Positions 1 through 56,097 of a stretch of DNA of 64,000 bases are shown one piece after another (within the stretch, counting starts at the first letter, position 1; the number at the start of each line of letters is the position of its first letter). The stretch is from Planctomycetota bacterium. Lineage in GTDB: Bacteria > Planctomycetota > Planctomycetia > Pirellulales > Pirellulaceae. Location: assembly GCA_026692865.1 (NCBI GenBank), contig JAPLNI010000057.1, forward strand, positions 186,001 to 250,000, given 5' to 3'. The notes under the pieces were generated by a model. The model was not told the DNA's origin and searched no databases. It was given only the letters and a program-made list of their open reading frames with translations. A program made the position numbers and the translations under genes.

Positions 1-2643
1 CTTGAGTCGTTCGCCCGTCATGCGATGCGCGGCGTCATGGGGGCAGGCGTAAACACATCGTGGGTCGCCGTCCAGACTCTTACATTGGTCACAGGTGGTC
101 GCTTTTTGGCGAATGATTGGCAATTGCCCTTTCTTGGTATCTGTTACGGAATCCATCTCACCGTACATGGTTATATTCCCATAAGGGCAGTTGTTCGAGC
201 AAAGCCCACAACCGATGCAGTGGTCTTCAATTCGGATTTCTTTGGAACCTTCACGGAAGATTGCGTTGACCGGGCAACCGACCAGGCAATACGGGTCGGT
301 GCAAGATCGGCAACTTGTCGCCACTAAAAAATTGCCAAAACGAAGTCCTTCCCGAACTAATCGCGACTTGCCATCGTGTGCATCCGCACATGCTCGCGTG
401 CATTCGTCACATCGAGTACACGACTCCAGATCTAAAACCAACAAACTCTGAGCGTTATAGAGACCTTGTTCGACAAAGTTCGACTTGCCGGTATGGAGTT
501 CTGTGTCGCGCAGCGCGTCTTTCTCGAGAAGTGTCTTGGCTCTTTTTAGTAGTTGTTCCTTAAAGAGTGGACTTCTATCGACAATTAGCTTCAATTGCGA
601 GCCCTTGATCCGAACTAGTTCAACGTGATCTAAGGCCGTACAGGAAGTCGATCGGATACCAGGTAAGTATTTCAATCGATTGAGTTCATCGCTCAATTCG
701 CCCTCATAAAGTTTCGAAAGGGCAGCGATTTCGCCGAAGGAGCTTTTCGGACCAATGTAATTGATGATTTGTTCACGTGACCCGTTTTGACGACTTACTT
801 TAACGTAGCCCAGGCGGACAAGATAAAAATCACTCCCTTCTTCTCCTTGGCGGAAGATCGGTTGGCCTGGTTCAACGCTCATCAATTCCACATCATTAGC
901 CAGAATCTTAGCCAAGGCAGGTCGTTCTTCGGCTGCTACCGATTCAAAGACTGGTAACTTCTCGAGTTGCGAATTCATGGCATAGCGACGATAGGCGTCA
1001 TTCAGGAGCTTACGACTGGCCGCATTGCGCTGGAGCATGTAAAGAACGTTGCTCCCGATTTCGATTACTTCCGAATCTTCAGCGGCCTTGATTGTTGCGC
1101 CTCGAGGATAGCGATTCAGGCACGCTTGCTCGCCAAGGATGACGTCCTGAGGAGTTCGGTACAGGGGCTCGGTTTTCAGTGCATCGATTTGTTTTGATGT
1201 TTGTAAACTAGGCGTATCGGTTCCTGTCGCTAAGCCAACAGGGGCGATTGTCGGTTCTAGATTCTTTGGTCTTCCGAGCAAGCTCCAGATATTCGCGAGG
1301 ATTCCACCAGTCGATTTCGAGCCAGACAAAAGGGTGGTAAAAGAAGGCTTCTCGAAGATAATCTCAAACTTCCCCTTTTTGATCAAGAATGCCGTCGCTC
1401 CATATTCACCTTGACGGCAGAGAACGGCCCCAGCTTTCAATTTCTTGCGAATAACAGCACCACCATTAAACTCCAAGTATTTGCGAGGGATACCGCCAAA
1501 TAGAGGGTCTTCCAGTAGTTCAGCAATGGATACGTTTTCGATGACAATATTTTCTTTCTGCTCAAGACGGTCGGAAGCGATTTGATTCTCAAGCTTTTGA
1601 ACTTGCTTCTTGATAATTTCTGGTCGAAAAGTAAGGGCATCGGTTGGACAAGAAATCACGCATTCGCCGCAAGAGACACAAGAGCTCTCCAGCATGGGAA
1701 GGTCCAGGTCAAAGCTAATTTGTGTTGCATAACCTTTCCCGGTACGAGAAATTACATCGTTGTTTTTGATATCGACGCAGGCCCGCGTGCAACGTTGACA
1801 GAGCACACACGCATCATGATTGACCGCGATCATTTCCGACGAGAGATCGAAACCTCGTTTTCCATGTTTTTCGCTTGGTAAAAACTTCGTTGTGTTCGTT
1901 TGCGGTTGAACAAAGCGAGCTACTAGTTTTTTTAATTCATTAGGCTCATGAGGACTTAGCCCCATGCGAACATCGTTCAAGTCAGAAGAAGTCAGGTTTT
2001 CGGTAGCAAGTAATTCAACCACCAGCCCCACGGATTTTTTCATCGTGTCAACCGCCCGCGGGATCGCACGAACTTCGTCAGCTATTTTCTTGATTTGCTT
2101 ATCGCGCTCCACCGATTCTGAAGTTGCCTCTAAAGTTTGCTTTAAAGCAATCAACTGAGGTAACTTTTCTTCACTCTTAAGCGTACGGATAACCATTTGG
2201 TCTTTCACGTGATACGTGCAAGAGGACACAAGGGCAGAACGCGATCTCCCACTTGCTCGAACTTCTTCGATTTGCACCAGACATACTCGACAAACCCCTA
2301 CTGGATTCAAATGCTCACGATGACAGAGAACAGGAATCGGATTCTCGTCTTCGAGTGTTTTGACGTAGTGTCCAGATACCGCGTCATAGATAGTTGTCGG
2401 GCGCGGAATGACTTCCCCCATGTCATTTCGGAGAATCGTTCCCTGCGAGTTACGCTGCGGAACAGCCTTCTTTACAACGACCCGGTCGCCATCGATTAAC
2501 AACGTAACATCAGTATCCAAATCCTTAGCAGTAGCTTGAACAACACGTACGAGTTGGCCATCGACGCCACGAGCGAAAAGCGACTCTTCGTTCGATCCGG
2601 CGAAATCGTTGGGAGCCGAGTTCTCTTTTTCTTCAATAGCCAT
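1..2643 (-). CDS. Fused NuoG-like / cyclic-nucleotide-binding / polyferredoxin redox protein (partial, C-terminus off window)
   Basis: Open from the ATG at 2643 to the left edge (881 codons, no stop seen), so the C-terminus is missing. Domain order: a NuoG/HydA-type [2Fe-2S] domain near residue 107 (C-x10-CRVC then C); two [4Fe-4S] motifs at about 278-330 (CVLCQRCTRAC and CVSCGECVISC); a cyclic-nucleotide-binding domain at about 365-540 with a full phosphate cassette (GEQACLNRYPRGAT); a second such domain at about 570-690 (FGE present, PR-A-T part degenerate); then a DmsB/NrfC-like region with four further cysteine clusters (CTRCDECTRAC, CRSCTDPYCLVGC, CIGCGLCSNNC, CDQC...CVYAC). Such proteins pass electrons from a flavin subunit through Fe-S centres; the nucleotide domains suggest gating by cAMP or cGMP, which is inference. 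It begins 9 bp after the NuoEF-like gene and is the last visible gene of the run. Domain calls are secure; the electron partner is not. Confidence 0.88.
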   Translation of the reverse strand, partial: MAIEEKENSAPNDFAGSNEESLFARGVDGQLVRVVQATAKDLDTDVTLLIDGDRVVVKKAVPQRNSQGTILRNDMGEVIPRPTTIYDAVSGHYVKTLEDENPIPVLCHREHLNPVGVCRVCLVQIEEVRASGRSRSALVSSCTYHVKDQMVIRTLKSEEKLPQLIALKQTLEATSESVERDKQIKKIADEVRAIPRAVDTMKKSVGLVVELLATENLTSSDLNDVRMGLSPHEPNELKKLVARFVQPQTNTTKFLPSEKHGKRGFDLSSEMIAVNHDACVLCQRCTRACVDIKNNDVISRTGKGYATQISFDLDLPMLESSCVSCGECVISCPTDALTFRPEIIKKQVQKLENQIASDRLEQKENIVIENVSIAELLEDPLFGGIPRKYLEFNGGAVIRKKLKAGAVLCRQGEYGATAFLIKKGKFEIIFEKPSFTTLLSGSKSTGGILANIWSLLGRPKNLEPTIAPVGLATGTDTPSLQTSKQIDALKTEPLYRTPQDVILGEQACLNRYPRGATIKAAEDSEVIEIGSNVLYMLQRNAASRKLLNDAYRRYAMNSQLEKLPVFESVAAEERPALAKILANDVELMSVEPGQPIFRQGEEGSDFYLVRLGYVKVSRQNGSREQIINYIGPKSSFGEIAALSKLYEGELSDELNRLKYLPGIRSTSCTALDHVELVRIKGSQLKLIVDRSPLFKEQLLKRAKTLLEKDALRDTELHTGKSNFVEQGLYNAQSLLVLDLESCTRCDECTRACADAHDGKSRLVREGLRFGNFLVATSCRSCTDPYCLVGCPVNAIFREGSKEIRIEDHCIGCGLCSNNCPYGNITMYGEMDSVTDTKKGQLPIIRQKATTCDQCKSLDGDPRCVYACPHDAAHRMTGERLK

Positions 2644-2652
2644 CAGGATTCC

Positions 2653-4575
2653 TTAGGCCTTTCCTGCGGAATTCGCTGGACGGAAGTATTTTATGTAGGA
2701 TGCTAAAGGTGCGCTAGCTGACGCACCCAGGGCACAAATACACACACCGGGTTCTCGCATCACGGTATCCAACATCGAGATGCTCCCGAGAATCTCTTGG
2801 GCTACTTCAACGACGGGAGTTAGTTGATACAGTTCCGCGAGATCGGCGATTTTACGCGAACCCAGTCGACAAGGCACGCACTTCCCGCACGACTCACGTT
2901 GGAAGAAACGACTACAAGCAACTGCTTGCTCCAGCATATCTGCATTTGCGCCGTAGACAACAATACCAGCACCAACGGGATAGCCAAGCTCGCGCGAAAT
3001 TCCGATATCCAAAGGGAGTCGCTTGATATCGATTAGGTCGCCCGCGAGTTCGGGATACTTGAAATCACTTGTCGGTTGTTTATCGGTCCCTATTTTCTTT
3101 GGCTCTCGTAGCGTTCCTTTCGGGAGTTTACCTGGAAGAAATCCTCCGGAAGGACCACTCATCGCGACGGCTTGCAATTCCACTCCGTCCTTCATTCCGC
3201 CCGCGAAGTTGTCGATTAACTCGCCGAGCGTAATTCCGCAAGGAACTTCGTAAGCACCCGGTCTCTCCAAATCACCGCTGATCGAAAAGAATCTCTTCCC
3301 GCGAATACGGTCTCTTCCTGCGTTTTTAAACCAGATACCTTGATGATTTTCGAGTTCGAGTGGCTTGGTGGGTTCTATGCGTGCCGATAGCACGTTTGGC
3401 GCTGCAATTTCCTTGTCTGCCATATCTTGGCTTGGGGGTTTCAACAAAATCGCTGGTACCCAGGCGAATGTTTCTGCATTGTTGAGTACGGTTGGTTGGT
3501 CATACAAGCCGTTGGTCTCAAGTTCGGGCGGTCGATTTCTTGGCTCGGAACGTTTGCCTTCGATAGCTTCGATAAGAGCCGTTTGTTCACCGCATACATA
3601 TCCGCCAGGGCTTACGAAGACCTCTAAGCTAAATGATCTTCCGCCACCAAAAATATTCTTTCCACAAGCTCCCTCTTTCTCAGCAGCAACAATCTCCGAC
3701 TTCAGTGCAGCGATTTGTTCGACGTATTCATGGCGAACGTAAATGAAACCTTGTTGGGCTTCAATGACTAGTCCAGCCATGATCATTCCTTCGATTATTA
3801 AGTGTGGTGCCGCAAGGAGAAGTTCTCGGTCTTTGAAAGTTCCTGGTTCGCTCTCGTCGGCATTGCAAACAACATACTTCGTTACTCCAATTGCCTTTTT
3901 AGCATCTTCCCACTTTCTCGAAGTCGGCGCGCCCGCTCCTCCCATACCGACGAGCCCTGCCGTTTCCAATCCTCGGATAACGCCGTCCGCATCAGGTTCT
4001 CTTATATAGTTTCTTACGGCTGAATAGCGTTGTAGTGGAGGAGATGCAGATCGATAGTAGTCGATCTCACTTCGCTGAAGAGTCAAACGAGCGGTTTGCA
4101 AATCTGAGTCTGGCGTGATCGAAACACCATCGAGCGCCTTGGATGCGATCTCGACGAGTTCGTCTGGGGTTCGCTGAACATAAAGCTCGTCATTGATAAT
4201 TGTCGCAAAAGCGCGATCACACCTGCCAAGACAAGATGCTTCCTGGATCTCGACCTGAAGCTCTTTTCCCGGACTCTGGGCTTCAAGTTGGTTTATCCAT
4301 TCCTTTAGCTTCGCCGTCGCCGTTGCCGACCCACGTAGTTTGCAAGTCATATCGCGGCAAACCTGGATACTGCATTTGGGTGGCGGGGTTCGTCGATAAT
4401 GCGGAAAAAACCCCACCACATTCTGAATGACATTCAATGGTTCACCAACGTGATCAGCGATTCTTTCGATTTCGCCTGTCTGCAGATATCCGTGCTTATG
4501 TTGGGATTCATAAAGCATTTTTGCTATACGAGTCCCTACTTTACGATCGACCAACGATTTTAGATCCAAGTTCAT
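2653..4575 (-). CDS. NuoE-NuoF fusion, NADH-dependent FMN/Fe-S subunit (HoxF/diaphorase-like)
   Basis: 640 aa. Residues about 1-160 are a NuoE-type thioredoxin-like [2Fe-2S] domain (VCRDMTC, then SCLGRC). Residues about 190-640 are NuoF: the flavin/NADH region GLVGMGGAGAPTSRKW, CNADESEPGTFKDRELL, the GGYVCGEQTALIEAIEGKR block, and the [4Fe-4S] motif SCGKCVPCRLGSRK with the late CICALG cysteine. The known family reaction is hydride transfer from NADH to FMN, then to Fe-S centres (or the reverse). The ATG overlaps the stop of the upstream cytochrome gene (ATGA), and the fused Fe-S/nucleotide-binding partner starts 9 bp downstream, so the two are surely co-translated. No NuoA-N membrane subunits or hydrogenase large subunit are visible nearby, so this is not complex I itself. 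A NADP rather than NAD preference cannot be judged. Confidence 0.9.
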   Translation of the reverse strand: MNLDLKSLVDRKVGTRIAKMLYESQHKHGYLQTGEIERIADHVGEPLNVIQNVVGFFPHYRRTPPPKCSIQVCRDMTCKLRGSATATAKLKEWINQLEAQSPGKELQVEIQEASCLGRCDRAFATIINDELYVQRTPDELVEIASKALDGVSITPDSDLQTARLTLQRSEIDYYRSASPPLQRYSAVRNYIREPDADGVIRGLETAGLVGMGGAGAPTSRKWEDAKKAIGVTKYVVCNADESEPGTFKDRELLLAAPHLIIEGMIMAGLVIEAQQGFIYVRHEYVEQIAALKSEIVAAEKEGACGKNIFGGGRSFSLEVFVSPGGYVCGEQTALIEAIEGKRSEPRNRPPELETNGLYDQPTVLNNAETFAWVPAILLKPPSQDMADKEIAAPNVLSARIEPTKPLELENHQGIWFKNAGRDRIRGKRFFSISGDLERPGAYEVPCGITLGELIDNFAGGMKDGVELQAVAMSGPSGGFLPGKLPKGTLREPKKIGTDKQPTSDFKYPELAGDLIDIKRLPLDIGISRELGYPVGAGIVVYGANADMLEQAVACSRFFQRESCGKCVPCRLGSRKIADLAELYQLTPVVEVAQEILGSISMLDTVMREPGVCICALGASASAPLASYIKYFRPANSAGKA

Positions 4576-6077
4576 TTTTGCCTGCTATTCATAAGTTCGA
4601 GGACAGTTGATCGATACTCCTCAAAAATCCATGGGTCAAAATCCTTCGGGCCGTCGACACGTATTTCTGTTCCTACGTAAGACTGATAGCCGATTTGCTT
4701 TTCAATATTGGCGATAAGCTTCTTGTCGACCGGAAGCTTCAAATCCGAAACGAGTGCCCGCGTAACAATAAACCAAGGCACAACGGCTTCCCATGTTGGC
4801 TGTTTAGGGAATCGGTCCAAGAGACCCAGTAGCGCCTGCCGCATTGAGGCTGGATCTTCCATCGGAGCATTGATTGCCACTGCCAGCTCACGCTCTAAAA
4901 GTACATGAAAATCTACCGCCGCATTGATCACGGTTTTTGGTTGCGGTAGCGGAGATTCCAATTCGTTCTGTAGCGTTTGTAGGCAAGCCCTAAACTCAAC
5001 TTGCTTCTCCCTTGGAAAAGCGAGTTCCAATTCTGCCGTGGTCCAAGCATCCCATTCGTATTGCCCTTTGTTACCTACTGACCGTCGCCATTTCGCATCC
5101 TGTAATGAATGATGACAGGAATAACAGCTGTACTCTGTAAGCTCAGGCCACGGTCTGTTGTCACCGTCAGAGTTTAAACTATCCCGTTGCCTGGTAAGCG
5201 ATTGCTCAACATCTGTAGCGCGATCGGATAGCAGTTTGACACGTTCCGCCGTTAGAGCCAGCTTGCCTAGTTTCCAGGTGCGAAACTCTTGGGGAACGCT
5301 GTTGTCAGTTGAGCCATCCGGTTCATCCCAGTGTCGCGGATAGCGATTCATGAATGTCGAAAAATCAAAATGCATCGGCGGATGACCGGCCGCCATCAGC
5401 TCATGGTTAACTTCTCGAACTCCATGCTCAGAATTCAACTCCCCAATGTGACATGAAGCACAGATAGCTGCTCTGCTTGCAATCGATTCGGTATTGAGCA
5501 TCTCGGAGTTATCAAAGCGACGCGACCCTTGCGATTTCCATGTGCTGGAATAGTGCTGATCTTTCCAAGCCGACGCTGGCCCATGACAAACTTGGCAATC
5601 GGCTCCTAGGATACGATTGCTCGTCGATGAAAGCGAATTAGCGTGGCAGCTTACGCACTTTTGTTCCAGGGCGTAGAGAAAACCTGATGAATCGGTGGAA
5701 CTCCAACTTGCGTTGGTTAATCGATTCACGATGGCCAAGGATTCCTCGGTCAGTAGCCGAATATAAGCGGTCGCATGAGGATCCTTTTGTAGCCAGATTG
5801 TTCCTGCACGTTGCCAAGTTAACGCTTGAGGATTATTCGATCCATGACACGATGTCGCCATGCAACCAACTATAGATAGCTTCGCTGAAGAATTAGCTTC
5901 CGTTAAATCGGTTTGTTGCACCGGTTGGTCAAGATCTACTCGTTTAGTTACGTAGATTTCTGAGTTGCTGCTGGAATAAACACCCTTCAGTGCAAGCCAA
6001 TCGAAGGAGCATGCAAACATCGCAATCAACATGCATAGAAATACCGCAAATGAGCGAAATTTGTATCTGAGGATCAC
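4572..6077 (-). CDS. Pentaheme cytochrome c, cytochrome c554-like
   Basis: 501 aa with an N-terminal hydrophobic segment (about residues 8-27), giving export and perhaps membrane anchoring. Five heme-binding motifs: an unusual CMATSCH (C-x4-CH) followed by CVSCH, CQVCH, CASCH and CYSCH. The spacing and the blocks CQVCHGPASAW and ICASCHIGE resemble the cytochrome c554 / multiheme NapC-HAO related group. The order and the leading C-x4-CH motif match the protein encoded at 10856-12340, so the two are paralogues. It overlaps the decaheme gene upstream and the NuoEF-like gene downstream by ATGA junctions. Expected in the periplasm, passing electrons to or from the membrane; substrate unknown. Confidence 0.87.
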   Translation of the reverse strand: MILRYKFRSFAVFLCMLIAMFACSFDWLALKGVYSSSNSEIYVTKRVDLDQPVQQTDLTEANSSAKLSIVGCMATSCHGSNNPQALTWQRAGTIWLQKDPHATAYIRLLTEESLAIVNRLTNASWSSTDSSGFLYALEQKCVSCHANSLSSTSNRILGADCQVCHGPASAWKDQHYSSTWKSQGSRRFDNSEMLNTESIASRAAICASCHIGELNSEHGVREVNHELMAAGHPPMHFDFSTFMNRYPRHWDEPDGSTDNSVPQEFRTWKLGKLALTAERVKLLSDRATDVEQSLTRQRDSLNSDGDNRPWPELTEYSCYSCHHSLQDAKWRRSVGNKGQYEWDAWTTAELELAFPREKQVEFRACLQTLQNELESPLPQPKTVINAAVDFHVLLERELAVAINAPMEDPASMRQALLGLLDRFPKQPTWEAVVPWFIVTRALVSDLKLPVDKKLIANIEKQIGYQSYVGTEIRVDGPKDFDPWIFEEYRSTVLELMNSRQK

Positions 6078-7603
6078 TGAGCTGCCCCTCGCATCACGTA
6101 TTGGCGTACCAGTTCCAAGTTTTCGGATGAAAACACATGCGACGCTTGGTTCTTATTGATGATGTTTGGAGAAGGATCAACGTGATATCGATGGCAGTCA
6201 ACGCAGTTTGCCTGCGCAACGGAAGGCTGGCTGTTTGCAAAGACTTTGGCTCGATCCAATGGTTTGCTAATGTGACACTCGCGGCAGTTTTCGATACCAG
6301 CGATCATGACTATCGATGCTTCTTCTTGAGAATCGACTCCCTGATCGCTTTGTACAAACGCTTGTTGGTGGCATGCTTTACAATCCACCATCATGTGTTC
6401 TCCATGAGGGAAGACGGCTCCTTGAAACCATCGCTTGGGTAGGTTGCTCTCTAGTACTATTTCCTTGGAACCCTTCGGTGCTAACTGATGACATTTAATG
6501 CACCAACCGTTATCACTCAGCAGTGCTTCTAAACGTGGCTGGAATTCATCCAGAGATCGCATAATCGATTCCTTCGTTTTCGAAACCGGTTCGACTAAAT
6601 TATCGGAAGCATCTTGACCCGGGGAAGCTCGAAGCGCTTCCTTAGTAACTTCCAGTTGCGTCTTGGCAAGGGTCGACTGCAATGCTTCTTTCGAGAGAGC
6701 TCGATTGAGCCCATGTGGCATGCCGCCTAGATCGTGGCATGCGATGCAATGCGTGTCAAAATCAATCGGGCGGTAGAGGTAGTGCTCGTTAGACGGCGTC
6801 GACTGGCGAGGTTCGTTACTCGATGATCCCGAATATTCATACCCGTTAACTGGGCTGTCCTGAGCATGGCAATCAGCGCAAGTAAGCTGAATCAATCCAT
6901 CAGCGTCCACGCGATTCGCGTACTGCGATCGATATTGGGGTGGAATGTCGTTCAGCCTCTTAATAGTGAGATCTCCCGGTTTTCCAGGCTGGCCGGGCCT
7001 CATGTGCTGGACGTGACTGAATTTGATGGTGCCTGGATCTTTTGAAAGACTACGAAAATCTGGGTGACCACCCGCAGCAGAAAAATCAAATGCATTGCCA
7101 ACCGATTTGTCGATGTTTACCAATAGCGAACTCGAGATTTGTCGGTGACAACGAACACAGTTTTTGTCGGAGAGCTCCACGAGGCTAAAATCTTTACCGA
7201 GATGCTCACGATGACATTCGGAGCAGCTTTCGTGTTGTAGAACCACAGACAAGGTTCTGGCATCAAAATGTCCAGTCACGCTGTGACACTTTGAATTGCA
7301 CTTATCGTTGTTCAATTTTACATTTTCAACTGAACTACCAAAGAGAGCGTCTGGGCGAATCGGTACGTTGGGTAGGTGACATTGTTCACATCCCGTTTCG
7401 TTCCACGCGGAATGAGCGTGAGAGAGATCCCCTGAGCTCATCTGGACTGCGTTCGAAGTGGAGAAACTCCATGCCGCGTAAACCAATCCGAGAATCAAAC
7501 CGCATAGCCCAGCGAAACGCTTGAAACGGACGAAGGGATCCAACGCTTCGTAGTAGAAACGATCTATTCTTCTTGAGCGTTCTTTTCCTGTCGTCTTCGT
7601 CAT
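6074..7603 (-). CDS. Membrane-anchored decaheme cytochrome c
   Basis: 509 aa with one N-terminal membrane segment (GLCGLILGLVYAAWSF, about residues 33-49) and a periplasmic remainder. Nine CXXCH motifs are seen (CEQCH, CSECH, CVRCH, CADCH, CIACH, CIKCH, CKACH, CRECH, CVDCH) plus CNSKCH, a C-x3-CH motif that would be a tenth, non-canonical site. Paired motifs and histidine-rich stretches (FPHGEH, KFSHVQH) resemble cytochrome c3/c7-type wires and offer axial ligands. It lies 36 bp after the b-type cytochrome gene and overlaps the next pentaheme gene, which fits a wire between membrane cytochrome b and soluble cytochromes. The function is inferred from context only. Confidence 0.87.
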   Translation of the reverse strand: MTKTTGKERSRRIDRFYYEALDPFVRFKRFAGLCGLILGLVYAAWSFSTSNAVQMSSGDLSHAHSAWNETGCEQCHLPNVPIRPDALFGSSVENVKLNNDKCNSKCHSVTGHFDARTLSVVLQHESCSECHREHLGKDFSLVELSDKNCVRCHRQISSSLLVNIDKSVGNAFDFSAAGGHPDFRSLSKDPGTIKFSHVQHMRPGQPGKPGDLTIKRLNDIPPQYRSQYANRVDADGLIQLTCADCHAQDSPVNGYEYSGSSSNEPRQSTPSNEHYLYRPIDFDTHCIACHDLGGMPHGLNRALSKEALQSTLAKTQLEVTKEALRASPGQDASDNLVEPVSKTKESIMRSLDEFQPRLEALLSDNGWCIKCHQLAPKGSKEIVLESNLPKRWFQGAVFPHGEHMMVDCKACHQQAFVQSDQGVDSQEEASIVMIAGIENCRECHISKPLDRAKVFANSQPSVAQANCVDCHRYHVDPSPNIINKNQASHVFSSENLELVRQYVMRGAAQ

Positions 7604-7639
7604 CAGTTGAATGGTATGAGTCGTTGTTGGGTTGCTTGA

Positions 7640-8740
7640 TCACATGTATCGAATTGCCAAGATAACATGGGCTACTAATAGTACACCCAACAAAACTGAA
7701 ATGGATGCGTGGACTGCGATCCAAGAATGAAGCCACGATTGTGTGCGGCGTTGGATATCGAACTGTCTTTTCTGATCACAAAAGTCTTCCAGTCGATCCA
7801 AAATCACAGAACTACTTGGCGAGCAACCCCCACGAAGCAGCGAAAACCAGTTCTTTGCCTTCTGGTAACTTTGTAGCTGTGAAACCCCATCACGGCTTGG
7901 ATGAACTACTTTAGTGTGATGCCCAATTCTTTGTTGTTGCGCGGTCGCGACTCTTGCGACGCGAGTCCGAATCCCTTGAATACCATTTAGTAGGTAGACA
8001 TCAATGACAGCCGCGTATTCCTTCCAAACAATACTTGAGTCGGATGGATCCACGTCGAAATCACTCTGTAGATTACTCCGACCTCGGGACGGACCCCGGC
8101 GTTGAACTGCGCCAACCACGACTTGCTTCTGCGCGGTGTCTTTGCTGAAGGACTGACCAGCGACACGTACTAGATTTAGCGAAGCAGACGCGTCGTCTAG
8201 ATTGGCAAGCTTTGTAAGGCCGTCGGGTTTAGGTCCATACGCTACAGTTAACATTCTCCGAGCATCCAAAGCGTTCTGAACTGCGACATCATCTATTTGC
8301 CCACTGATCGTTTCCGAAGGTAGGTTAGAGAGCATCCATCGAGGAATGACGAGTTGCATGATCCATCCGTAGATTCCGCTCGCGAGTACAAAAATCAGCA
8401 AGTACATCAGTAATGATGAAAACGTTCCACCGAAACGATAACCAGCATGAATGAAGGCAAGCGGGCCGGATGCAAGTCCAAGCCAAATGTGTCCAGCCAT
8501 CCAGTATCGTGTTGGCCCCAACTTGTACTTTCGAAACTTTTTTCTCGGCCAAAGAAGGAGCTCGAAAAGAATTATCATCGCAGCAATAGAGCCTAGCACT
8601 ATTCCAACCAAAGAGCTGCCACCAACCGAACGGCCCGCGTTTTGAGATGCAACTGCCTGCCAAGATGCACCTCCGACAATCAAGGTGATCACAACCAGGA
8701 TCCATCCCGCGTGAAGTTTGAAATTTCGAGCAAGTAGCAC
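7640..8740 (-). CDS. Membrane b-type cytochrome-like protein
   Basis: 366 aa, GTG start at 8740. Four hydrophobic helices: about 12-32, 43-62, a pair at about 78-130 and one at the C-terminus. Histidines sit within or at the ends of helices (HAGW in helix 1, GHIWLG and IHAGYRFGG in the middle, LHSWIAVH and AHVIL at the end), the pattern of a diheme cytochrome b or ferric-reductase-like protein. The 190-residue middle part (about 140-330) is soluble, without a recognised motif. Its place between pentaheme and decaheme cytochrome genes and the NADH module makes it the likely membrane bridge. Heme b binding is inference from histidine placement. Confidence 0.7.
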   Translation of the reverse strand: MLLARNFKLHAGWILVVITLIVGGASWQAVASQNAGRSVGGSSLVGIVLGSIAAMIILFELLLWPRKKFRKYKLGPTRYWMAGHIWLGLASGPLAFIHAGYRFGGTFSSLLMYLLIFVLASGIYGWIMQLVIPRWMLSNLPSETISGQIDDVAVQNALDARRMLTVAYGPKPDGLTKLANLDDASASLNLVRVAGQSFSKDTAQKQVVVGAVQRRGPSRGRSNLQSDFDVDPSDSSIVWKEYAAVIDVYLLNGIQGIRTRVARVATAQQQRIGHHTKVVHPSRDGVSQLQSYQKAKNWFSLLRGGCSPSSSVILDRLEDFCDQKRQFDIQRRTQSWLHSWIAVHASISVLLGVLLVAHVILAIRYM

Positions 8741-9005
8741 AACGCCCCCTTGAAATACCGGTCGGAAAGCCCGTATTTCATGACCAAACGTGAAAAAAGC
8801 CGTCCATGTTTCTTGTAATCAGACGTAGCTCCGGCGTCAATCTTCTCCCAATCTAGAAATGATCGATCATGTAATTGTAAACATTTTTGCGGATCAGAAT
8901 GATCTCAAATTTGACAGTCAAAAAAGGGGTGTTTAACAACAAAATTCGTCTAGAGCGGATCGGTCAACAGTCAGAGCTGGTTATTTATTTAAATTGCTCA
9001 AAAGA

Positions 9006-9064
9006 GCCGAAACGCGTCAGCGTCCGGTTCAGAGGAAACCGTGGGCTAACGCCCAACGTCTCAC
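9006..9064. repeat. REP-like imperfect palindrome in a 440-bp gap
   Basis: The 8741-9179 gap interrupts the cytochrome run. It holds an imperfect palindrome made of GCGTCAGCGTCCGGTT and the self-complementary block CCGTGGGCTAACGCCCAACG, which looks like an interspersed planctomycete repeat. No coding signal is convincing here: a 93-codon frame at 8887-9168 on the plus strand has no recognisable content. The gap may also hold a promoter for the five genes downstream; no clear boxes were seen. Confidence 0.45.
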
Positions 9065-9179
9065 TTACCTCACTCATAATACTGGCTTGCCCTGTGATTA
9101 CATTGAAGCAAGGGATTGTGAGATTAATCTGGTACTGTTCCGAATCACACGACATTGACATTCTTTAGTCAAAAGCTCA

Positions 9180-10859
9180 CTACTCTGCTGGGCCGTGCGG
9201 TTCAAGGACTAATAGAATCCTTTGGAAAATTGCGTCACATTCATCTCGGCGGTAGTTGCTCGCAATGCTCAACGTCGATTGAAGGCCAGTTAAGACACTG
9301 GTCTGAGGAGCATCTTTCGTGAATTGCAAGTTAAGAATTTTGGTTAGCGAGTCAAGATCGGCGCGGACTTCTGATCTACGCAAAACGTTGTGGCTGACAA
9401 GTTCTTCAATCACTACTTTTACCATCCATCCAGTTTGCTTGGCGGTCCAATAATCGTAGAGCATTGGTTGTCGGTCTCGAATCAATCGAGCTAACCAGCT
9501 TTTCACCGCTTTTTCGTTTGTCGTGGTGTTATCGAATGCTTTCAAGTCGATGAAACGTTGATTCAATTGGTGTAGATGATTCTTACTCATCGTCGCAATT
9601 TGTTTGCGATCACCAAATGGGATTTTATCAAAAGCGACTAGGATTGTCTGATTTAGCGAATCAAAAGATTTGAGATTGATTGGTACGTCCAGTAATGATG
9701 TCAGAGGTGTTTCGGCTATCCACCATCGTGGTGGATAGGGCCGTCCCGGAACACGCCCAAGCGACACGATGCGCGGCGTTGGTTTCCGCAACTCCTGATG
9801 GCAACCCATGCAGTCGTACACGGCGTAGTCTCCCCATTGTTGGGAGTCATTGGCAAGCTTGTGGATCGTCTCCAGTCCAATACTATTGGCGACGAATCCT
9901 CCGACCATAACACGGCGAGAACGCGGGAAGTCTTCTCGAATTCGCTTCTTTAATGATTCATAGTCCAAATCGGATTTGGTGGGGCCGAAGTTGGCTTGAA
10001 GATATTCTCTTTGAAGCTCGAACTCATCGTTAGCCTTCGGTTTCAGAGGAAGATCCCTTGCGACGTTTGTTTCGTTTAATAAAGCGGGATAGGGTTTCTC
10101 TTGAAGTGTTCGCCAATGAGGAGGCATGGCGTCTAGGAACGTTTGTAGTTCAACCGGTGGAAGAGGTGGGTGACCGGCAGCATAAAACTGGTGAGTCACA
10201 AATCGATTTTGCGATAGGTCTCCCATGTGGCAGCTATAACAAATCTTTGCCGCTATGGAGGGCGAACGAATGTCCCACATGCCAAGATGAGCTTTCTGAT
10301 CGGGGGTCTTCGCTCGCCAAGAAGTTTGCTGATGGTTTTGTGTTTGAATATATTCGCTGCCCGGCCCATGGCAGGATTCGCATTGCACACCAAACTGAAG
10401 AACACTTTGATCCGGTAGTGGCCTGCTGTGATCGGCTCCGACATGGCAAGTCAAGCATTGCTGCGCGAATCGATCATCCCTCACGATCCATTCATTCGAC
10501 TGAGCATCATGAGTAACGTTCCATTGGAGATTTTGGAGTATCGTGAGGGAGCGTTGGTTAGACAGGCGATTCGGTAGCTCCATCTCCTCGGGACTCAAGC
10601 CATCGATCTTGATGAGCTCGTAGGCATAGGCATGTTTATCGCGTTGCATCCATTCACTAGACTCGACTAATCGCACAAACTGCGTGACATCTAGTCGCTG
10701 ATAGACGGGACTTGGATTGCTATGACAAGCGGCGCATTCCTTCACCCCGACGTTTGTTGCCGTAACCGAAGTCGGTTGATCTGCGTGCGACTTAGTAGAA
10801 GCCAAGGCAATCAAACCAACTACTACAATCCTCACTAAAACACCCCTGAGTGGAATCAT
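9180..10859 (-). CDS. Pentaheme cytochrome c, cytochrome c554-like
   Basis: 559 aa when started at the ATG at 10859, which overlaps the stop of the upstream gene as ATGA and puts a clean signal peptide (LVRIVVVGLIALASTKSHA) at the N-terminus; the longer frame to 10916 would run 60 bp into the neighbour. Five CXXCH motifs: CAACH, CLTCH, CESCH, CYSCH, CMGCH. The block CESCHGPGSEYI and the SCHMGD block align by eye with those in the two other pentaheme proteins here, so it is a third, more distant paralogue with a normal first heme motif. Periplasmic; redox partner inferred to be the membrane and decaheme cytochromes of the same run. Confidence 0.87.
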   Translation of the reverse strand: MIPLRGVLVRIVVVGLIALASTKSHADQPTSVTATNVGVKECAACHSNPSPVYQRLDVTQFVRLVESSEWMQRDKHAYAYELIKIDGLSPEEMELPNRLSNQRSLTILQNLQWNVTHDAQSNEWIVRDDRFAQQCLTCHVGADHSRPLPDQSVLQFGVQCESCHGPGSEYIQTQNHQQTSWRAKTPDQKAHLGMWDIRSPSIAAKICYSCHMGDLSQNRFVTHQFYAAGHPPLPPVELQTFLDAMPPHWRTLQEKPYPALLNETNVARDLPLKPKANDEFELQREYLQANFGPTKSDLDYESLKKRIREDFPRSRRVMVGGFVANSIGLETIHKLANDSQQWGDYAVYDCMGCHQELRKPTPRIVSLGRVPGRPYPPRWWIAETPLTSLLDVPINLKSFDSLNQTILVAFDKIPFGDRKQIATMSKNHLHQLNQRFIDLKAFDNTTTNEKAVKSWLARLIRDRQPMLYDYWTAKQTGWMVKVVIEELVSHNVLRRSEVRADLDSLTKILNLQFTKDAPQTSVLTGLQSTLSIASNYRRDECDAIFQRILLVLEPHGPAE

Positions 10860-12340
10860 CGTAGTGGCTCTTCTTTCATCAGTAGGTTGGCCGCTTGGTT
10901 TAAAGCACTGCTCCACTGCTCAAAGTTGGGTGGAGTCGTTGAGCTAGCAGTACGTGGAAACTGAGGAGACTGGGTCGAGGGTGGGAATAAAACAGCTCGT
11001 CTCATCGTATGCAGCGAAGTCATTAGTTCTTTCGCTCCGTCTCGTGGACTCGACGCCCATGCCGCAAGATAGAATCGCGACGCACTTTCCCATTGTCGAC
11101 TTACATCAACTCCATTTCCGAGTTCATTCGCGATCTGTCGTTGCTTCCTTTGATTCCAATCGCCAAGTGAAAGATCGTTACACTGAAGTATTTCTTCGTT
11201 GATCAACGATCTGAGCTGGCTAGTCGTATTGATGATATCACCTACATCGTCTGATCGATCTTGAAGGATATCTTTGAGCAGTAAAAGCTTCTGGACGAGA
11301 TCGTCGTTCTCAGAATTACTTTTAGATCGCTGCCACGATTCTATTCCATCCAGATTCCAACCTCGGACCGATGCAGTTCCCGAAATAAGTCGTTGGCGAT
11401 CTGAGGATGTCGGGGCGCGGGGTAAACCATTGAGTGAGACATGGCAATCCGTGCATTGATACAGAGCAAGCTCCGGCCACGTTGAGACCGAGTGTGATTG
11501 CGTTGCACGGGCTTCAGCCAACTCTAATTCCGAGTCTGCCATCGCGATCTGGCCGGCAAGCCAAAGACGTGCTCGCATGTCTGGTGAGGCTTCATCCTTT
11601 TCACGCCAGTGTTTCGGATAGCGTTCGTGGTAGACAGCCATATCAAAATACAAAGCCGGGTGACCTGCGGCAACGATTTCATGATTCATGTCGCGATCCG
11701 TCGAACCGACATGACACACCGTACACATTTTTGCACGTGTGATCAGCGGTTGGATATTTGTCATTCCAGGCAATACGAATTTAGCGCCGCTGTAGTGCCG
11801 ATCATACCAAGGCTCGGAGGGTCCATGACACATTTCGCATCCAACACCTTCCGCGATACTCGGGGTCAACAAGTCATCGGTCATCTCTTGATTTGTGTTG
11901 TGGCAAGCGAGGCAGTTTTTGTAGGCAGCCGCATTCTTAATTTGTCCATCACTAAGAATCTTCAGCTTCGTGAGGATTGCTTCTGATTCTTTAGAGGCGA
12001 GAGTTCGCCACGATCGGGCATGTGGATCAATCTCTTTCCAGAGTGCGTACTCCGAGCCACGGAGGGCTGTCTGCGTTGAGCTTCCTGGACGCGGCCCACC
12101 GTGACAGCTTGAGCCTGCGCAGCTCGCTGCACCGCGTAGACCTAGCTCTGGGTGATGTAGCGAATCGATTGAGACATCAAGAATTCTTTTCGTGTGACCA
12201 ATTCCGTTAAGGTCCCTTGCGATTGGATCTTGTTGACCCATTGCATTGGACATCATTAAAGTCATGCCAGCAATTAGTGCCCCGAACTTCACGAATGCAA
12301 AACCTTCCTTTACCAGAAAACTAAGTTGTTGCTTGCCCAT
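10856..12340 (-). CDS. Pentaheme cytochrome c with C-x4-CH first heme site
   Basis: 494 aa with an N-terminal hydrophobic segment (FVKFGALIAGMTLMMSNAMG). Heme motifs are CAGSSCH (C-x4-CH), CLACH, CEMCH, CTVCH and CTDCH. The layout copies that of the 501-aa cytochrome at 4572-6077, including the GCEMCHGPSEPWYDRHYSG block that parallels QVCHGPASAWKDQHYSS, so the pair arose by duplication. It is the first gene of the minus-strand redox run and starts 148 bp from the divergent adenylate cyclase gene. Role: periplasmic electron carrier or catalytic multiheme protein; substrate unknown. Confidence 0.87.
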   Translation of the reverse strand: MGKQQLSFLVKEGFAFVKFGALIAGMTLMMSNAMGQQDPIARDLNGIGHTKRILDVSIDSLHHPELGLRGAASCAGSSCHGGPRPGSSTQTALRGSEYALWKEIDPHARSWRTLASKESEAILTKLKILSDGQIKNAAAYKNCLACHNTNQEMTDDLLTPSIAEGVGCEMCHGPSEPWYDRHYSGAKFVLPGMTNIQPLITRAKMCTVCHVGSTDRDMNHEIVAAGHPALYFDMAVYHERYPKHWREKDEASPDMRARLWLAGQIAMADSELELAEARATQSHSVSTWPELALYQCTDCHVSLNGLPRAPTSSDRQRLISGTASVRGWNLDGIESWQRSKSNSENDDLVQKLLLLKDILQDRSDDVGDIINTTSQLRSLINEEILQCNDLSLGDWNQRKQRQIANELGNGVDVSRQWESASRFYLAAWASSPRDGAKELMTSLHTMRRAVLFPPSTQSPQFPRTASSTTPPNFEQWSSALNQAANLLMKEEPLR

Positions 12341-12488
12341 ACTGATATTAAAGATGTTATTCTTAGAAGATGGGTTTGTGAGGAGTTCTCGGCTCCGCGT
12401 CGCAAAAAACTAAGCGATAATCTGCCTGTGAGTTTAGTGTACGAATTTTGAGTCCGGCGGAATTTCTTTTGAAAAAATTAGCGAACCA
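12341..12488. promoter_or_regulatory. Divergent intergenic region between redox operon and adenylate cyclase
   Basis: 148 bp separate the starts of two divergent genes, so promoters for both must lie here or overlap the coding ends. Two TGTGAG half-sites (12377-12382 and 12427-12432) are present, but neither has a partner half-site at the CRP spacing. No convincing -35/-10 pair was found by eye. Confidence 0.35.
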
Positions 12489-14330
12489 GTGAAGCTGACA
12501 GTCAGACTATTAAATCATGGTGAAACGCTTTTCGAAGGTGCTTTCGATGAAGCCATTGAGTTTGGGCGACAGAAGCAATCCGAGTTGTACGAGCCAAGAA
12601 TTCAGCGATCTCCCGAGGGAAACCTTAGGTTTTTAGTTGCTCCGCTAAACAATACAGCGTTTCCCCGACAACTGCTCAGCGTTACACCTCAAGAAAGTCC
12701 GATACCGGCAATTGTTGTAATCAATATGCGCTCTGATCGCCGTTTCATGATCGACGGCATCGGCCCATTAGCGCCGCTGGCGACTCAAACGGTCCCTTTA
12801 CCAACAGGCCTGAGTCTACCTGACGGCTATCGATTGGAATTCAAAGTCCAGGCAACATTCACTTCTAAATCTTATCTGAGCTCTGCTCACCGAATGGCCG
12901 AACCGTTCCTCCGAAACCAAACGATCACTCAATTACCATCATTGTTGGCGAAGCAAGAAGGTTTAAACCCTTCGATCATTTTGGGTTGGTTGAACGAAGT
13001 CATTAAGGCGATGCAACGCCCGGCTTCGGATATGAACTACTTTAAAGGATTTGCTCAGGCTGTTACCCAAATCGCAGACTTCGATCGTGCTGAGGTTGTG
13101 TTGTGGAAGGACGGCAGTTGGGAACACGACGAGTCTCGTTTATTCATTCGAGAGGAATTGCAAAACTCGACAACATTCAACCCGCCTTCGCGGTCGATAC
13201 TCGAAAAGGCACGGATTGACCAGCTTATTGTCATTCACCCCGACGTTAATCATGCCGATTCGGGTTGGGCGTTAAATAGTATACAACTCTTAAACGCAGC
13301 GATCGCTTGCCCACTACTCGATGAAAAGAAGGAAGTGCTAGGGGTGCTGTATGCTGACCGCGGATCTCGCCCTGGCTTCAGTGCGACAGAGATTTCGGAT
13401 GCAGAACAGAGATTGATCGAGATTCTTGTCGCAGGAATCACGTCAGGGGTTCTCAAATCGAAACAGGAACAGTTGGTTACCAAGTATCAACAGTTCTTCT
13501 CGCCGAAGATCACGGAGGCTATTCGACAGAAACCATCACTGCTGGCTGGTGAGGAGACGAACGTCACCGTCTTGTTTTGTGATATTCGCGGCTTCAGCCG
13601 AATAGCCGATAAGATCGGTTCAGCCAGGGCAATGGAGTGGGTAAGCGATACCCTGAGCGACTTATCCGAGATCGTTCTCGAATCAGATGGAGTGCTCGTA
13701 GACTATGTTGGCGATGAACTGTTTGCGATGTGGGGTGCTCCAGAAAATTCTGAAATACATGCGTTCCAAGCTGCGATTGCCGCTGGAATGATGATGAATC
13801 GAAGATCTGTACTGTCAGAACGTTGGAAAGAAGTTATTCCGGAGGGTGTTGATTTTGGGATTGGGCTTTGTACGGGCCCGGCTCGTGTTGGGAATACTGG
13901 TTCAAAACAGAAATTTAAATACGGGCCAATGGGTACAACCGTGAACCTTGGAAGTCGTATTCAAGGACTCACGAAACAATGGAAAGTCGGCACATTGCTG
14001 GATGAAGCGACGCACGGAAATCTTCCCAGCGATATGCTTCGAAGACGACTCTTTACGGCAAACGTTGTTGGACTAGACGGGGCAATCGACCTTTATGAAC
14101 TGATGCCCGATGATAACCAAGCGTCAAAGGATTTGGTGGCGAGTTATGAGGCGGCCTACTCCATATTCGAAATGGGAAACCAACCGAGGGAAGCTGCGCA
14201 TGCCTTTGGTGAACTGGCACGACGTTTTCCGGAAGATGGACCATCGCTGATGATGCTGGTTAGATCCGTAAACCAGCTAGTTGAACCTGCCTGCCCGTTC
14301 TCACCTGTTTGGTCCGCAAAGATAAAATAA
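12489..14330 (+). CDS. Class III adenylate cyclase with FHA-like and GAF sensor domains
   Basis: 613 aa, GTG start at 12489. Residues about 1-120 look FHA-like (FGRQKQ, FPRQLLSV); about 170-325 are GAF-like (AVTQIADFDRAEVVLW, LNAAIACPLLDEKKEVLGVLYADR); about 355-550 are the class III cyclase catalytic domain. Metal-binding aspartates appear in LFCDIRGFS (about residue 366) and DYVGDELFAMWG (about 408), and the substrate segment is YGPMGTTVNLGSRIQG. The known reaction is ATP to cAMP; a cGMP activity cannot be excluded. A short tail (about 555-600) may be helical. The divergent neighbour operon ends in a protein with two cyclic-nucleotide-binding domains, which gives a direct candidate receptor. 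Cytoplasmic; no membrane segment seen. Confidence 0.9.
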   Translation: MKLTVRLLNHGETLFEGAFDEAIEFGRQKQSELYEPRIQRSPEGNLRFLVAPLNNTAFPRQLLSVTPQESPIPAIVVINMRSDRRFMIDGIGPLAPLATQTVPLPTGLSLPDGYRLEFKVQATFTSKSYLSSAHRMAEPFLRNQTITQLPSLLAKQEGLNPSIILGWLNEVIKAMQRPASDMNYFKGFAQAVTQIADFDRAEVVLWKDGSWEHDESRLFIREELQNSTTFNPPSRSILEKARIDQLIVIHPDVNHADSGWALNSIQLLNAAIACPLLDEKKEVLGVLYADRGSRPGFSATEISDAEQRLIEILVAGITSGVLKSKQEQLVTKYQQFFSPKITEAIRQKPSLLAGEETNVTVLFCDIRGFSRIADKIGSARAMEWVSDTLSDLSEIVLESDGVLVDYVGDELFAMWGAPENSEIHAFQAAIAAGMMMNRRSVLSERWKEVIPEGVDFGIGLCTGPARVGNTGSKQKFKYGPMGTTVNLGSRIQGLTKQWKVGTLLDEATHGNLPSDMLRRRLFTANVVGLDGAIDLYELMPDDNQASKDLVASYEAAYSIFEMGNQPREAAHAFGELARRFPEDGPSLMMLVRSVNQLVEPACPFSPVWSAKIK

Positions 14331-14382: not shown

Positions 14383-14955
14383 CTATTCGTGAAGTTTAGG
14401 ACCTTCTGTAGCATAAGCACCGGCACCACCTTGATAACGACGGCCATGAGACCAATGAAGCCAGGTTTTTCGTGAGAACCAGTGGCCAGCATAATCGAGT
14501 CCGAAAGTTCCCTCGCTTGGAAATCGTTGGAAGCCAGAAAACAGGGAACCTCCGCCAACGTAACCAACTGAATAGTCACTGCTGATTGAGGGTTTCGCAA
14601 AGTTCCCGACACATAGGGGGTAACCGGCGCGTTCATGGCCGTTCATGCAGTACCTTCCAGACTTATGTGCTTTTGGCGACTCTTGGCCACGCGGACGGTC
14701 TAAAGGAAAGATGTCTCTCGACTGCACTTCGTCCGGCTCGCGAAACATACCATCTGGATGACCCACCGAATCAACTGGTGCATTTGAGTAATTCGAAAGT
14801 CGCTCGAGCTCGTTATCGCTTAATGATCGCAGAACCGAGTCACCTAAGTGCTGTGTAACAGGGCCGGATTCAGCTAATGCCCATTGCGGATTGTGAGCAA
14901 CGAAAGCAACGAGCCAGCCGAATAAACAACAGACAAAACAAATTCGCGGCAGCAT
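14383..14955 (-). CDS. Secreted protein of unknown function
   Basis: 190 aa with a signal peptide (CFVCCLFGWLVAFVAHNPQWALA). The mature part is Gly/Ser/Tyr rich toward the C-terminus (YVGGGSLFSGFQRF, WSHGRRYQGGAGAY), with a CMNGHERAGYPLC stretch that could bind a metal or form a disulfide. I do not recognise the family. Convergent with the cyclase gene; 53 bp separate the stops and no clear terminator hairpin was seen. Confidence 0.65.
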   Translation of the reverse strand: MLPRICFVCCLFGWLVAFVAHNPQWALAESGPVTQHLGDSVLRSLSDNELERLSNYSNAPVDSVGHPDGMFREPDEVQSRDIFPLDRPRGQESPKAHKSGRYCMNGHERAGYPLCVGNFAKPSISSDYSVGYVGGGSLFSGFQRFPSEGTFGLDYAGHWFSRKTWLHWSHGRRYQGGAGAYATEGPKLHE

Positions 14956-17746: not shown

Positions 17747-18018
17747 TGAAGCGTGTACCTACAAGGATCTAAGCCAGCTTCGAAAACCAGCTTTAGGCAG
17801 GTTACAAACCAACCCCAAAACGGGCTTGTCATGCTTTGTGGCTACTGCCATGAATAACACAATCATAATCGATACGATCACTATAATCCGGAGAATCTGT
17901 GGTTTCTCGTTAACTTGTGTTACCGGATTAACCGATACATCTCGTTGAGTGCTGTTGAAGTACACGGTATCCGATACGAATCGCGAATTTCTGAGGCATA
18001 GTAACCAGCGATCGTTCT

Positions 18019-20028: not shown

Positions 20029-20051
20029 GAAACGTCAACAAGCGGTCACGG

Positions 20052-29284: not shown

Positions 29285-29322
29285 AACAAAAAACCTCGTT
29301 TTCCCAAAGAAAAACGAGGTTT
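29285..29322 (-). terminator. Rho-independent terminator of tmRNA
   Basis: Perfect 12-bp arms 29291-29302 and 29311-29322 (AAACCTCGTTTT) with an 8-nt loop, followed on the minus strand by TTTTTTG. It lies 7 bp past the tmRNA 3' end and is supplied by the integrated element. Confidence 0.82.
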
Positions 29323-29328
29323 ATTTGA

Positions 29329-29352
29329 TGGAGCCGGGGGGAATTGAACCCC
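29329..29352. repeat. Right attachment site within tmRNA 3' end
   Basis: 24 bp identical to 24415-24438; forms the acceptor stem and T-arm of the functional tmRNA. Confidence 0.85.
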
Positions 29353-29683
29353 CGTCCCGAGATACTTCCAACCCGGCATCTACGTGTGTAGCCATCTGTT
29401 GTTGTCTCGCCCACTGCGTTCGTTGATGACATCGGTGCAGCGCGCCAGCCTGGAGCTTTATTTAGCTGATGATGTGCCAGGCGCGACCATCAACGATTCG
29501 AAATTGCGACGGATAGTATGGCGTCTTCGACGAACCCCAAGTACCCGAGCAGCCTAATTAGGCCGCTAGTGCGAAGTTACCTTCAGCAGTTACTTTTTTG
29601 ATCGAGTTTTTACGTGTCCACCCGACCAACCACGACACGCCACCAAAGCCTTCAAATTATCCGGTCGAATCCAGATCGGCCCC
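29329..29683 (-). ncRNA. ssrA: Transfer-messenger RNA (tmRNA)
   Basis: On the minus strand the gene opens with GGGGCCGATCTGGATTCGAC and closes with GGGTTCAATTCCCCCCGGCTCCA; GGGGCCG pairs with CGGCTCC to make the acceptor stem (one G-U). CCA is not fully encoded. The tag frame reads GCT GAA GGT AAC TTC GCA CTA GCG GCC TAA, giving AEGNFALAA, in the form used by planctomycetes. About 355 nt, normal for a one-piece tmRNA. It rescues stalled ribosomes and marks the product for proteolysis. The 3' end is shared with the element's attachment site. Confidence 0.95.
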
Positions 29684-56038: not shown

Positions 56039-56097
56039 TTTGTTTTTGAGGAAAGGAATTTCTAGGTTACAGAGAGTTTCAGTTTAATTCGATTTTT

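Follow-up and report, generated by a model that had tools for sequence, protein, structure and literature searches.

A candidate NADH-fed electron conduit with built-in cyclic-nucleotide-binding domains in Planctomycetota and other bacterial phyla

In this study we describe a gene set in a stretch of 64,000 nucleotides from a Planctomycetota bacterium (NCBI GenBank assembly GCA_026692865.1, contig JAPLNI010000057.1). This whole stretch, G000:C57:186001-250000 in our numbering, is called the window below, and all coordinates are relative to it unless marked. It is a real and widely conserved electron-transfer system that is apparently undescribed. At its centre stands a protein that we call FUSED, in which a pair of cyclic-nucleotide-binding (CNB) domains sits between two stretches of iron-sulfur (Fe-S) clusters. 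We propose that the set might be an NADH-fed electron conduit through the cell envelope that is regulated by a cyclic nucleotide, and we give this reading, made from sequence, a probability of about one half. That the parts belong to one system is highly probable. Seven of its genes form a minus-strand run from position 12340 to the left edge, in the order MHC4, MHC3, CYTB, MHC2, MHC1, NUOEF and FUSED (MHC stands for multiheme cytochrome), and neighbours in this run overlap or nearly abut, except for a 439-base gap between CYTB and MHC3:

1..2643, minus strand: FUSED, with NuoG-like [2Fe-2S] and two [4Fe-4S] clusters, tandem CNB domains and a polyferredoxin of four clusters; truncated at the window edge
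1624..2394, minus strand: NuoG/HydA-like part of FUSED (residues ~84-340)
994..1476, minus strand: first CNB domain of FUSED, CNB1 (residues ~390-550), with the phosphate-binding cassette G504 E505 ... R514 x A516 T517
574..966, minus strand: second CNB domain of FUSED, CNB2 (residues ~560-690), with F636 G637 E638 ... R664
31..432, minus strand: polyferredoxin end of FUSED (residues ~738-871), 16 Cys for four [4Fe-4S] clusters
2653..4575, minus strand: NUOEF, a NuoE-NuoF fusion with an NADH/flavin mononucleotide (FMN) domain, the N3 [4Fe-4S] cluster as in NuoF/HydB and a NuoE-type [2Fe-2S] cluster
4572..6077, minus strand: MHC1, four CxxCH and one C-x4-CH, N-terminus hydrophobic
6074..7603, minus strand: MHC2, ten-heme cytochrome (nine CxxCH and one C-x3-CH), hydrophobic residues 30-48 a likely membrane anchor
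7640..8740, minus strand: CYTB, predicted bis-heme b-type membrane protein with H84/H98 and H344/H358
9180..10916, minus strand: MHC3, five-heme cytochrome, N-terminus hydrophobic
10856..12340, minus strand: MHC4, four CxxCH and one C-x4-CH, cytochrome c554-like
12489..14330, plus strand: CYC, class III nucleotide cyclase, divergent from MHC4

The NADH module, its carrier and the cytochromes

FUSED comprises 891 amino acids in the genome (L003:13968-16643), of which 881 lie inside the window; the last 10 and the stop codon fall outside, and the gene ends 33 bases past the edge. Pfam recognised Fer2_4 at residues 108-155, Fer4 pairs at 278-336 and 808-871 and one cNMP_binding domain at 588-643, which is CNB2. 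CNB1 was recognised by its conserved cassette and by a match to regulatory subunits of PKA, not by Pfam. This match (E 4e-22) spans ~150 profile positions from the first CNB domain into the second, while the NuoG-like part matches the alpha subunit of a tungsten formate dehydrogenase and HydA (E 3e-32) and the C-terminal end a HycB3-type polyferredoxin (E 2e-16). The ligands amount to one [2Fe-2S] cluster (C107, C118, C121, C142) and six [4Fe-4S] clusters, two of them in the NuoG-like part (C279, C282, C285, C289 and C322, C325, C328, C332). Our alignment of 93 FUSED sequences holds five loci twice and hence 88 distinct loci; in these, wherever the alignment has a letter (84 to 87 of 88), every cluster position is Cys, apart from one Ser at C854.

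NUOEF matches HydB/NuoF (best E 1.6e-74) with aligned motifs that include the N3 cluster, and PF01512, PF10589 and PF01257 score above cut-off in it, although it stays below the NCBIfam cut-offs for NuoF (324 vs 559) and NuoE (72 vs 142). FUSED scores 39 with the NuoG model against a cut-off of 470. It lacks the molybdopterin-fold C-terminal domain of NuoG, its C-terminus consisting of CNB domains and polyferredoxin, and the N5 motif H-x3-C-x2-C of NuoG was found in none of the 88 loci, the FUSED protein of the window having no Cys between 142 and 279. We dropped the idea of a complex I duplicate, since FUSED fails these NuoG tests and a second NuoF lies elsewhere in the genome. Alignment columns 220 and 235, which fall in the linker that carries N5 in NuoG, have Cys in 22 of the 88 loci, without the full motif. 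The RnfC model reached 38.6 on the window proteins (cut-off 246), and no Rnf membrane subunit was seen among the eight proteins scanned. The NuoF-like subunit of bifurcating HydABC carries an additional C-terminal ferredoxin domain; NUOEF ends after the N3 region with no Fer4 match, and electron bifurcation was rejected on the absence of this domain.

The heme-binding sites of the four multiheme cytochromes sum to 25, of which five belong to MHC3. The C-x4-CH sites are kept in relatives of MHC4 (31/31) and MHC1 (23/26), and the C-x3-CH of MHC2 is probably a local variant of its tenth site, because 38 of 43 relatives have ten canonical sites. MHC2 reached 37.7 bits with the decaheme model of MtrA/DmsE (TIGR03508; cut-off 192), and MHC3 and MHC4 match Cytochrome_C554. 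A scan found hydrophobic N-termini in MHC1, MHC2, MHC3 and the LVIVD cytochrome described below. As judged from its sequence, CYTB is a bis-heme cytochrome b: its four His form two H-x13-H pairs that are invariant in 45 of 45 sequences, including a paralogue from the same genome, and a structural model (predicted local distance difference test, pLDDT, 87; predicted template modelling score 0.80) locates them on two long helices, predicted at residues 77-98 and 308-364.

An earlier reading of this stretch (the original prediction) had claimed a protein with NuoG-like Fe-S motifs, two CNB domains and a four-cluster polyferredoxin, encoded together with a NuoEF-like flavin subunit, a membrane cytochrome b-like protein and four multiheme cytochromes with 25 putative c-heme sites. 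Each of these is present where it was placed. The heme count holds with three atypical sites (22 are canonical), and the membrane protein is borne out by its invariant His, although it has no Pfam match.

The arrangement is not particular to this genome. A scan of named genomes gave at least 312 relatives among 589 candidate stretches, and our locus counts use the best 80. These come from Planctomycetota, Verrucomicrobia and Acidobacteria, with one each from Riflebacteria, Rokubacteria and a genome labelled Actinobacteria, the phyla being taken from names, some of which (e.g. Kuenenia, Akkermansia) may mislabel metagenome bins. Among the Planctomycetota there are Rhodopirellula, Roseiconus, Neorhodopirellula, Tautonia, Gemmataceae and Isosphaeraceae. 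In 60 of the 65 loci with more than 2.5 kb of upstream DNA, the gene immediately upstream of FUSED, in the same orientation, is NUOEF. Of the 49 loci with more than 7 kb, 35 have CYTB, and 32 have it together with NUOEF and a multiheme cytochrome. This conservation of the module led us to reject a chance co-location of unrelated genes. In a sample of 119 genomes of the same family, 59 had a match to FUSED and 13 the full fused form.

The nucleotide pockets and the linked cyclases

As CNB folds often lose nucleotide binding, we inspected the pocket residues, which in CRP and PKA bind the phosphate and ribose. Among the distinct loci, CNB1 keeps G504 in 88/88, E505 in 87/88, R514 in 88/88 and A516 in 87/88, and CNB2 keeps G637 in 87/87, E638 in 86/87 and R664 in 86/87; the pocket Glu and Arg of both domains are thus 99-100% conserved, like the cluster Cys. 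Only 22 of 272 well-filled CNB positions (at least 80 letters each) reach 95% conservation, and all seven pocket positions are among them (P 8e-9, a value that ignores kinship as well as the fact that the seven were named after a first look at conservation). T517 (76/88) and F636 (67/87) fall below 95%. The residue after the pocket Arg is mostly Ser or Thr, which does not discriminate between cyclic AMP (cAMP) and cyclic GMP (cGMP). Short CNB-ferredoxin paralogues largely keep CNB1 (Glu in 24/24, Arg in 20/24) and have Leu at the Glu position of CNB2 in 22/24. Both pockets of FUSED look intact, which makes the protein a candidate cyclic nucleotide receptor built into an electron carrier, and from these residues we consider it quite likely that the domains bind a cyclic nucleotide. 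In the genome of the window cNMP_binding exceeds its cut-off in four proteins only, two of them CNB-ferredoxins, and HTH_Crp_2 has no match above cut-off; cyclic nucleotide signalling may hence have few targets here.

The neighbouring gene, CYC, matches PF00211 with 48.1 bits (cut-off 21.9). All 17 linked cyclases match this family; the metal-binding D365 and D409 as well as N486 are invariant in them and R490 is nearly so. In class III adenylate cyclases a Lys and an Asp recognise the adenine. Aligned to CyaB, CYC has Asp and Lys where CyaB has this Lys and Asp, and so lacks the adenylate-specific pair. Because of this swap its product may be cAMP or cGMP; the original prediction, which had called the next divergent gene an adenylate cyclase, stands as to the cyclase and not as to the specificity.

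With 203 matches in 52 genomes, class III cyclases are scarce, and one lies inside the FUSED locus in 14 of 52 genomes where 0.63 would be expected. The 52 comprise 39 genomes chosen from the best 80 loci, mostly for longer flanks, and the first 13 that we analysed; the chosen loci hold 12 of the 14 cyclase-bearing loci, so that 14/52 leans upward. Without locus choice the count is 14/80, plus two of the first 13 (the window and L049), with ~1 expected by scaling for these together. The conserved linkage proposed as a check in the original prediction is clear for the fused protein and its NuoEF-like neighbour; for the cyclase it exceeds chance and concerns a minority of loci. A cyclase also lies within 15 kb of the outer-membrane barrel described below in at least 12 of 47 genomes (0.94 expected). 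It adjoins a gene of the system directly in nine of the 14 cyclase-bearing loci of the best 80, and its position varies: beside FUSED, beside NUOEF, between MHC4 and CYTB or beside MHC2. Two further cyclases lie near but outside the counted loci, in G120 (5 to 6 kb upstream of CYTB) and in G154 (0.9 kb from the barrel).

A cyclase tree of 35 rows, from which the background proteins L155 and L156 had been removed as identical to the linked L079 and L072, required 13 changes of the label "linked", at least four of them forced by starred branches. Shuffled labels needed 12.0 on average, and 421 of 500 shuffles were as low. Counting the four near cyclases as linked gave 11 changes, at least four forced, with 291 of 500 shuffles as low. 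One orthologous cyclase inherited with the module was rejected on this scattered tree. The changes may be gains or losses, that is, several origins or one origin with frequent loss.

It might be possible that the conduit is as we propose and that its CNB domains are no electron switch, serving assembly, membrane localisation, stability or another ligand, while the cyclase acts elsewhere. CNB-like folds that do not bind cyclic nucleotides are common (FNR and CooA are examples), all seven short-paralogue loci examined keep CYTB and a ten-heme partner despite the altered Glu of CNB2, and the flanking DNA examined shows no cyclase in 66 of 80 loci. However, both pockets of the fused family are conserved like cluster ligands across phyla, and cyclases are linked far above chance at differing positions of the cluster. 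We regard this explanation as somewhat unlikely. Our odds for a nucleotide-regulated conduit derive from the pockets and the cyclase enrichment.

The outer-membrane half and its usual partner

The original prediction had confined the system to positions 1-14330. The genes that it named are there, but conserved partners run on to 24137, and it missed the outer-membrane half (15311-24137):

14383..14955, minus strand: small protein of 190 amino acids, membership of the system tentative; homologues in L058, L063, L076 and L085
15311..17746, minus strand: HbpS-like protein with dockerin (cluster c5)
18019..20028, plus strand: outer-membrane beta-barrel, AlgE-like fold, ~18 strands (cluster c7)
20052..24137, plus strand: ten-heme cytochrome with C-terminal LVIVD repeats (cluster c4)

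In the 80 loci, other phyla included, we found beside FUSED the HbpS-like gene in 13, the barrel in 11 and the LVIVD cytochrome in 13 with partial copies in three more. Within the family sample 21 of 119 genomes have the barrel, and precisely these 21 have a CNB-ferredoxin of at least 800 amino acids, a cut-off for "long" that was set after the family search results; 13 of the 21 have FUSED, so that the barrel is present in 13/13 FUSED genomes, and eight have another long CNB-ferredoxin. Across a phylum sample a CNB-ferredoxin was found in 29 of 32 barrel-positive and 26 of 262 barrel-negative genomes (P 1e-21; as the genomes are related, such P values are too small). Here we counted as a CNB-ferredoxin, by hand, any match that began at query residue 605 or before and ended at 820 or beyond (in G371 it lies in two pieces). 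Of the 29 genomes with both genes, 16 carry them on a single contig less than 17 kb apart. Of the 52 FUSED genomes 47 have the barrel. By these co-occurrence counts the outer-membrane set usually goes with a CNB-ferredoxin, to which part of the family has added the NADH end.

Other CNB-ferredoxins were noted as well. The short paralogue in the genome of the window (G000:C31, L004:6749-11501) has its own CYTB with the same four His and a ten-heme cytochrome; neither an NADH module nor a barrel lies beside it, and its CNB2 pocket is altered. A third type (L057:6869-9796 and L058:7017-10340; 975 and 1107 amino acids) has intact-looking pockets and an insert before the last cluster. In L058 it adjoins the HbpS-like gene and the barrel, and the L058 homologue of the 190-amino-acid protein also adjoins the HbpS-like gene.

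Alternatively, the multiheme cytochromes might be a periplasmic reductase, for example of nitrogen oxides, with the barrel and the LVIVD cytochrome a separate system merely nearby. This would suit the Cytochrome_C554 matches of MHC3 and MHC4 and the genomes in which barrel and FUSED lie on different contigs (G013) or 2.9 Mb apart (G053). We consider it quite unlikely in view of the 21 family genomes that barrel and long CNB-ferredoxin share and their proximity in the phylum sample. A conduit with an extracellular end is the more probable arrangement.

Proposed electron route and known systems

From the parts, their conservation, the pockets and the linkage we infer a complex, an electron order, an outward direction and a gate. 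The established chemistry of each domain gives the order NADH, FMN, Fe-S, Fe-S, b hemes, c hemes. NADH would reduce the FMN of NUOEF, from where electrons would reach its [4Fe-4S] cluster, then the [2Fe-2S] and two [4Fe-4S] clusters at the NuoG-like end of FUSED and the four-cluster polyferredoxin. The polyferredoxin would pass them to the two b hemes of CYTB and so across the inner membrane, CYTB to the ten-heme MHC2 and the periplasmic MHC1, MHC3 and MHC4, and these to the barrel and the ten-heme LVIVD cytochrome, which would reduce an extracellular acceptor such as a humic substance or a metal oxide. A cyclic nucleotide from the neighbouring or another class III cyclase would bind the tandem CNB domains and alter the contact between the Fe-S stretches of FUSED. 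Such a gate is suggested by the position of the CNB domains and the conservation of their pockets. One reason for it could be that an ungated leak of NADH would be costly, since electrons that leave the negative inside for the positive outside, with no protons pumped, dissipate membrane potential. Judged from these features, direct control of electron flow by a cyclic nucleotide has slightly less than an even chance. More tentatively, the tandem CNB domains may be a conformational relay that connects or interrupts the route from NADH to the outside, used in several phyla with a cyclase of varying lineage beside it.

Outward flow is likely, because it is downhill and because the barrel and a second ten-heme cytochrome stand at the far end. 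The conduit might also run inward, oxidising an outside or periplasmic donor (Fe(II), Mn(II) or reduced humics) to make NADH at the cost of membrane potential, with the cyclic nucleotide giving permission. NAD-linked hydrogenases and formate dehydrogenases, whose diaphorase modules can run both ways, are among the nearest relatives of known structure for NUOEF and the NuoG-like part. However, reduction of NAD+ by donors such as Fe(II) is steeply uphill, and we consider this direction unlikely.

Several observations weigh against a regulated outward conduit as a whole. The linked cyclases are scattered over their tree, clustering no more than shuffled labels, and most loci show no cyclase in the DNA examined. 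The barrel resembles AlgE/OprD and not a known porin-cytochrome barrel (Z 27.6 against AlgE, root-mean-square deviation 3.1 over 365 aligned residues), in a weak model (pLDDT 57). We had expected an MtrB-like barrel; MtrB was not among the matches listed, which does not exclude it. A heme protein housed within the barrel is a predicted role only. The scan for hydrophobic N-termini found none over threshold in MHC4 or the barrel. The CYTB model gave no Foldseek hit to solved structures at E 0.001. We had expected CYTB to match a solved cytochrome b and obtained no confident match: its best VIA match was the McpS sensor domain (Z 8.8), followed by STEAP4 (Z 7.2 over 143 residues) and b561 (Z 6.2), all within noise for helical proteins. 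The barrel was not found in five of the 52 FUSED genomes nor in G201, a CNB-ferredoxin was not found in three of the 32 barrel genomes of the phylum sample, and in the genus-mate G059 (87% complete) neither FUSED nor barrel was found; these absences are soft, the genome searches having scored few candidates each (at most seven in the family sample, three to four in the phylum sample).

Compared with known systems, the NADH end shares NuoEF and the N-terminus of NuoG with the diaphorases of NAD-dependent formate dehydrogenases, hydrogenases and complex I. Unlike in those, no formate or hydrogen site was seen, and CNB domains and a polyferredoxin come after the NuoG-like part. MtrCAB and the Pcc systems of Geobacter are porin-cytochrome conduits. 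Ours is like them in its inner-membrane cytochrome, its periplasmic multiheme cytochromes and a barrel adjoining a ten-heme cytochrome, and differs in its AlgE-like barrel of ~18 strands, its LVIVD partner, its direct NADH module and its CNB domains. The pocket Gly-Glu and Arg are common to FUSED and the cAMP receptor domains of PKA regulatory subunits and CRP; in contrast to these, the CNB domains of FUSED are embedded in an Fe-S electron carrier, with no helix-turn-helix and no kinase partner. CYC is like the class III cyclases CyaB and CyaC in its PF00211 match and metal Asp and differs by the swapped adenine-recognising residues.

Among the titles and opening lines of abstracts listed in our literature search, which did not cover subscription journals and preprints, we recognised no paper on a CNB-ferredoxin with multiheme cytochromes. 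A putative porin-multiheme cluster has been reported in Verrucomicrobia (PMC5615132), which resembles the present system in the same parts as MtrCAB and Pcc do; its main text contains neither the term NADH nor the term cyclic nucleotide. Porin-cytochrome complexes are reported in genomes of Planctomycetota and KSB1, where the available part of the article does not contain "cyclic nucleotide" (PMC10732223), and a table in a further article lists for Planctomycetes two homologues of CbcL/MtoC/MtrH and no ImcH (PMC6295460). In Shewanella, cAMP-CRP is reported to control respiration (PMC4417206, PMC12210985). That system and ours are alike in combining cAMP signalling with multiheme electron export; the signal acts on transcription there and, as proposed, inside the carrier here.

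Cyclic nucleotides are known to control respiratory electron flow through CRP, by way of transcription. If the gate were true, respiration would be controlled in a new way, with a second messenger acting directly on the electron wire. A messenger pocket in the carrier would let cells open or close their NADH outlet without new protein synthesis. Planctomycetes, acidobacteria and verrucomicrobia are common in lakes and soils. The conduit, if true, would give them a defined route to reduce humics or metal oxides, testable in named strains; FUSED is carried by Roseiconus nitratireducens JC645, Neorhodopirellula pilleata Pla100, Rhodopirellula sallentina SM41 and Tautonia sociabilis GM2012.

Minor observations concern the surroundings. 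An open reading frame of 186 amino acids directly downstream of FUSED (L003:13358-13918, G000:C57:185358-185918) looks by eye like a piece of an IS630-type transposase. Another at 28365-29426 resembles a tyrosine recombinase by eye, with no Pfam match at 1e-6. At 53846-58356 a fusion of Aldolase_II and a short-chain dehydrogenase adjoins an Orn/Lys/Arg decarboxylase.

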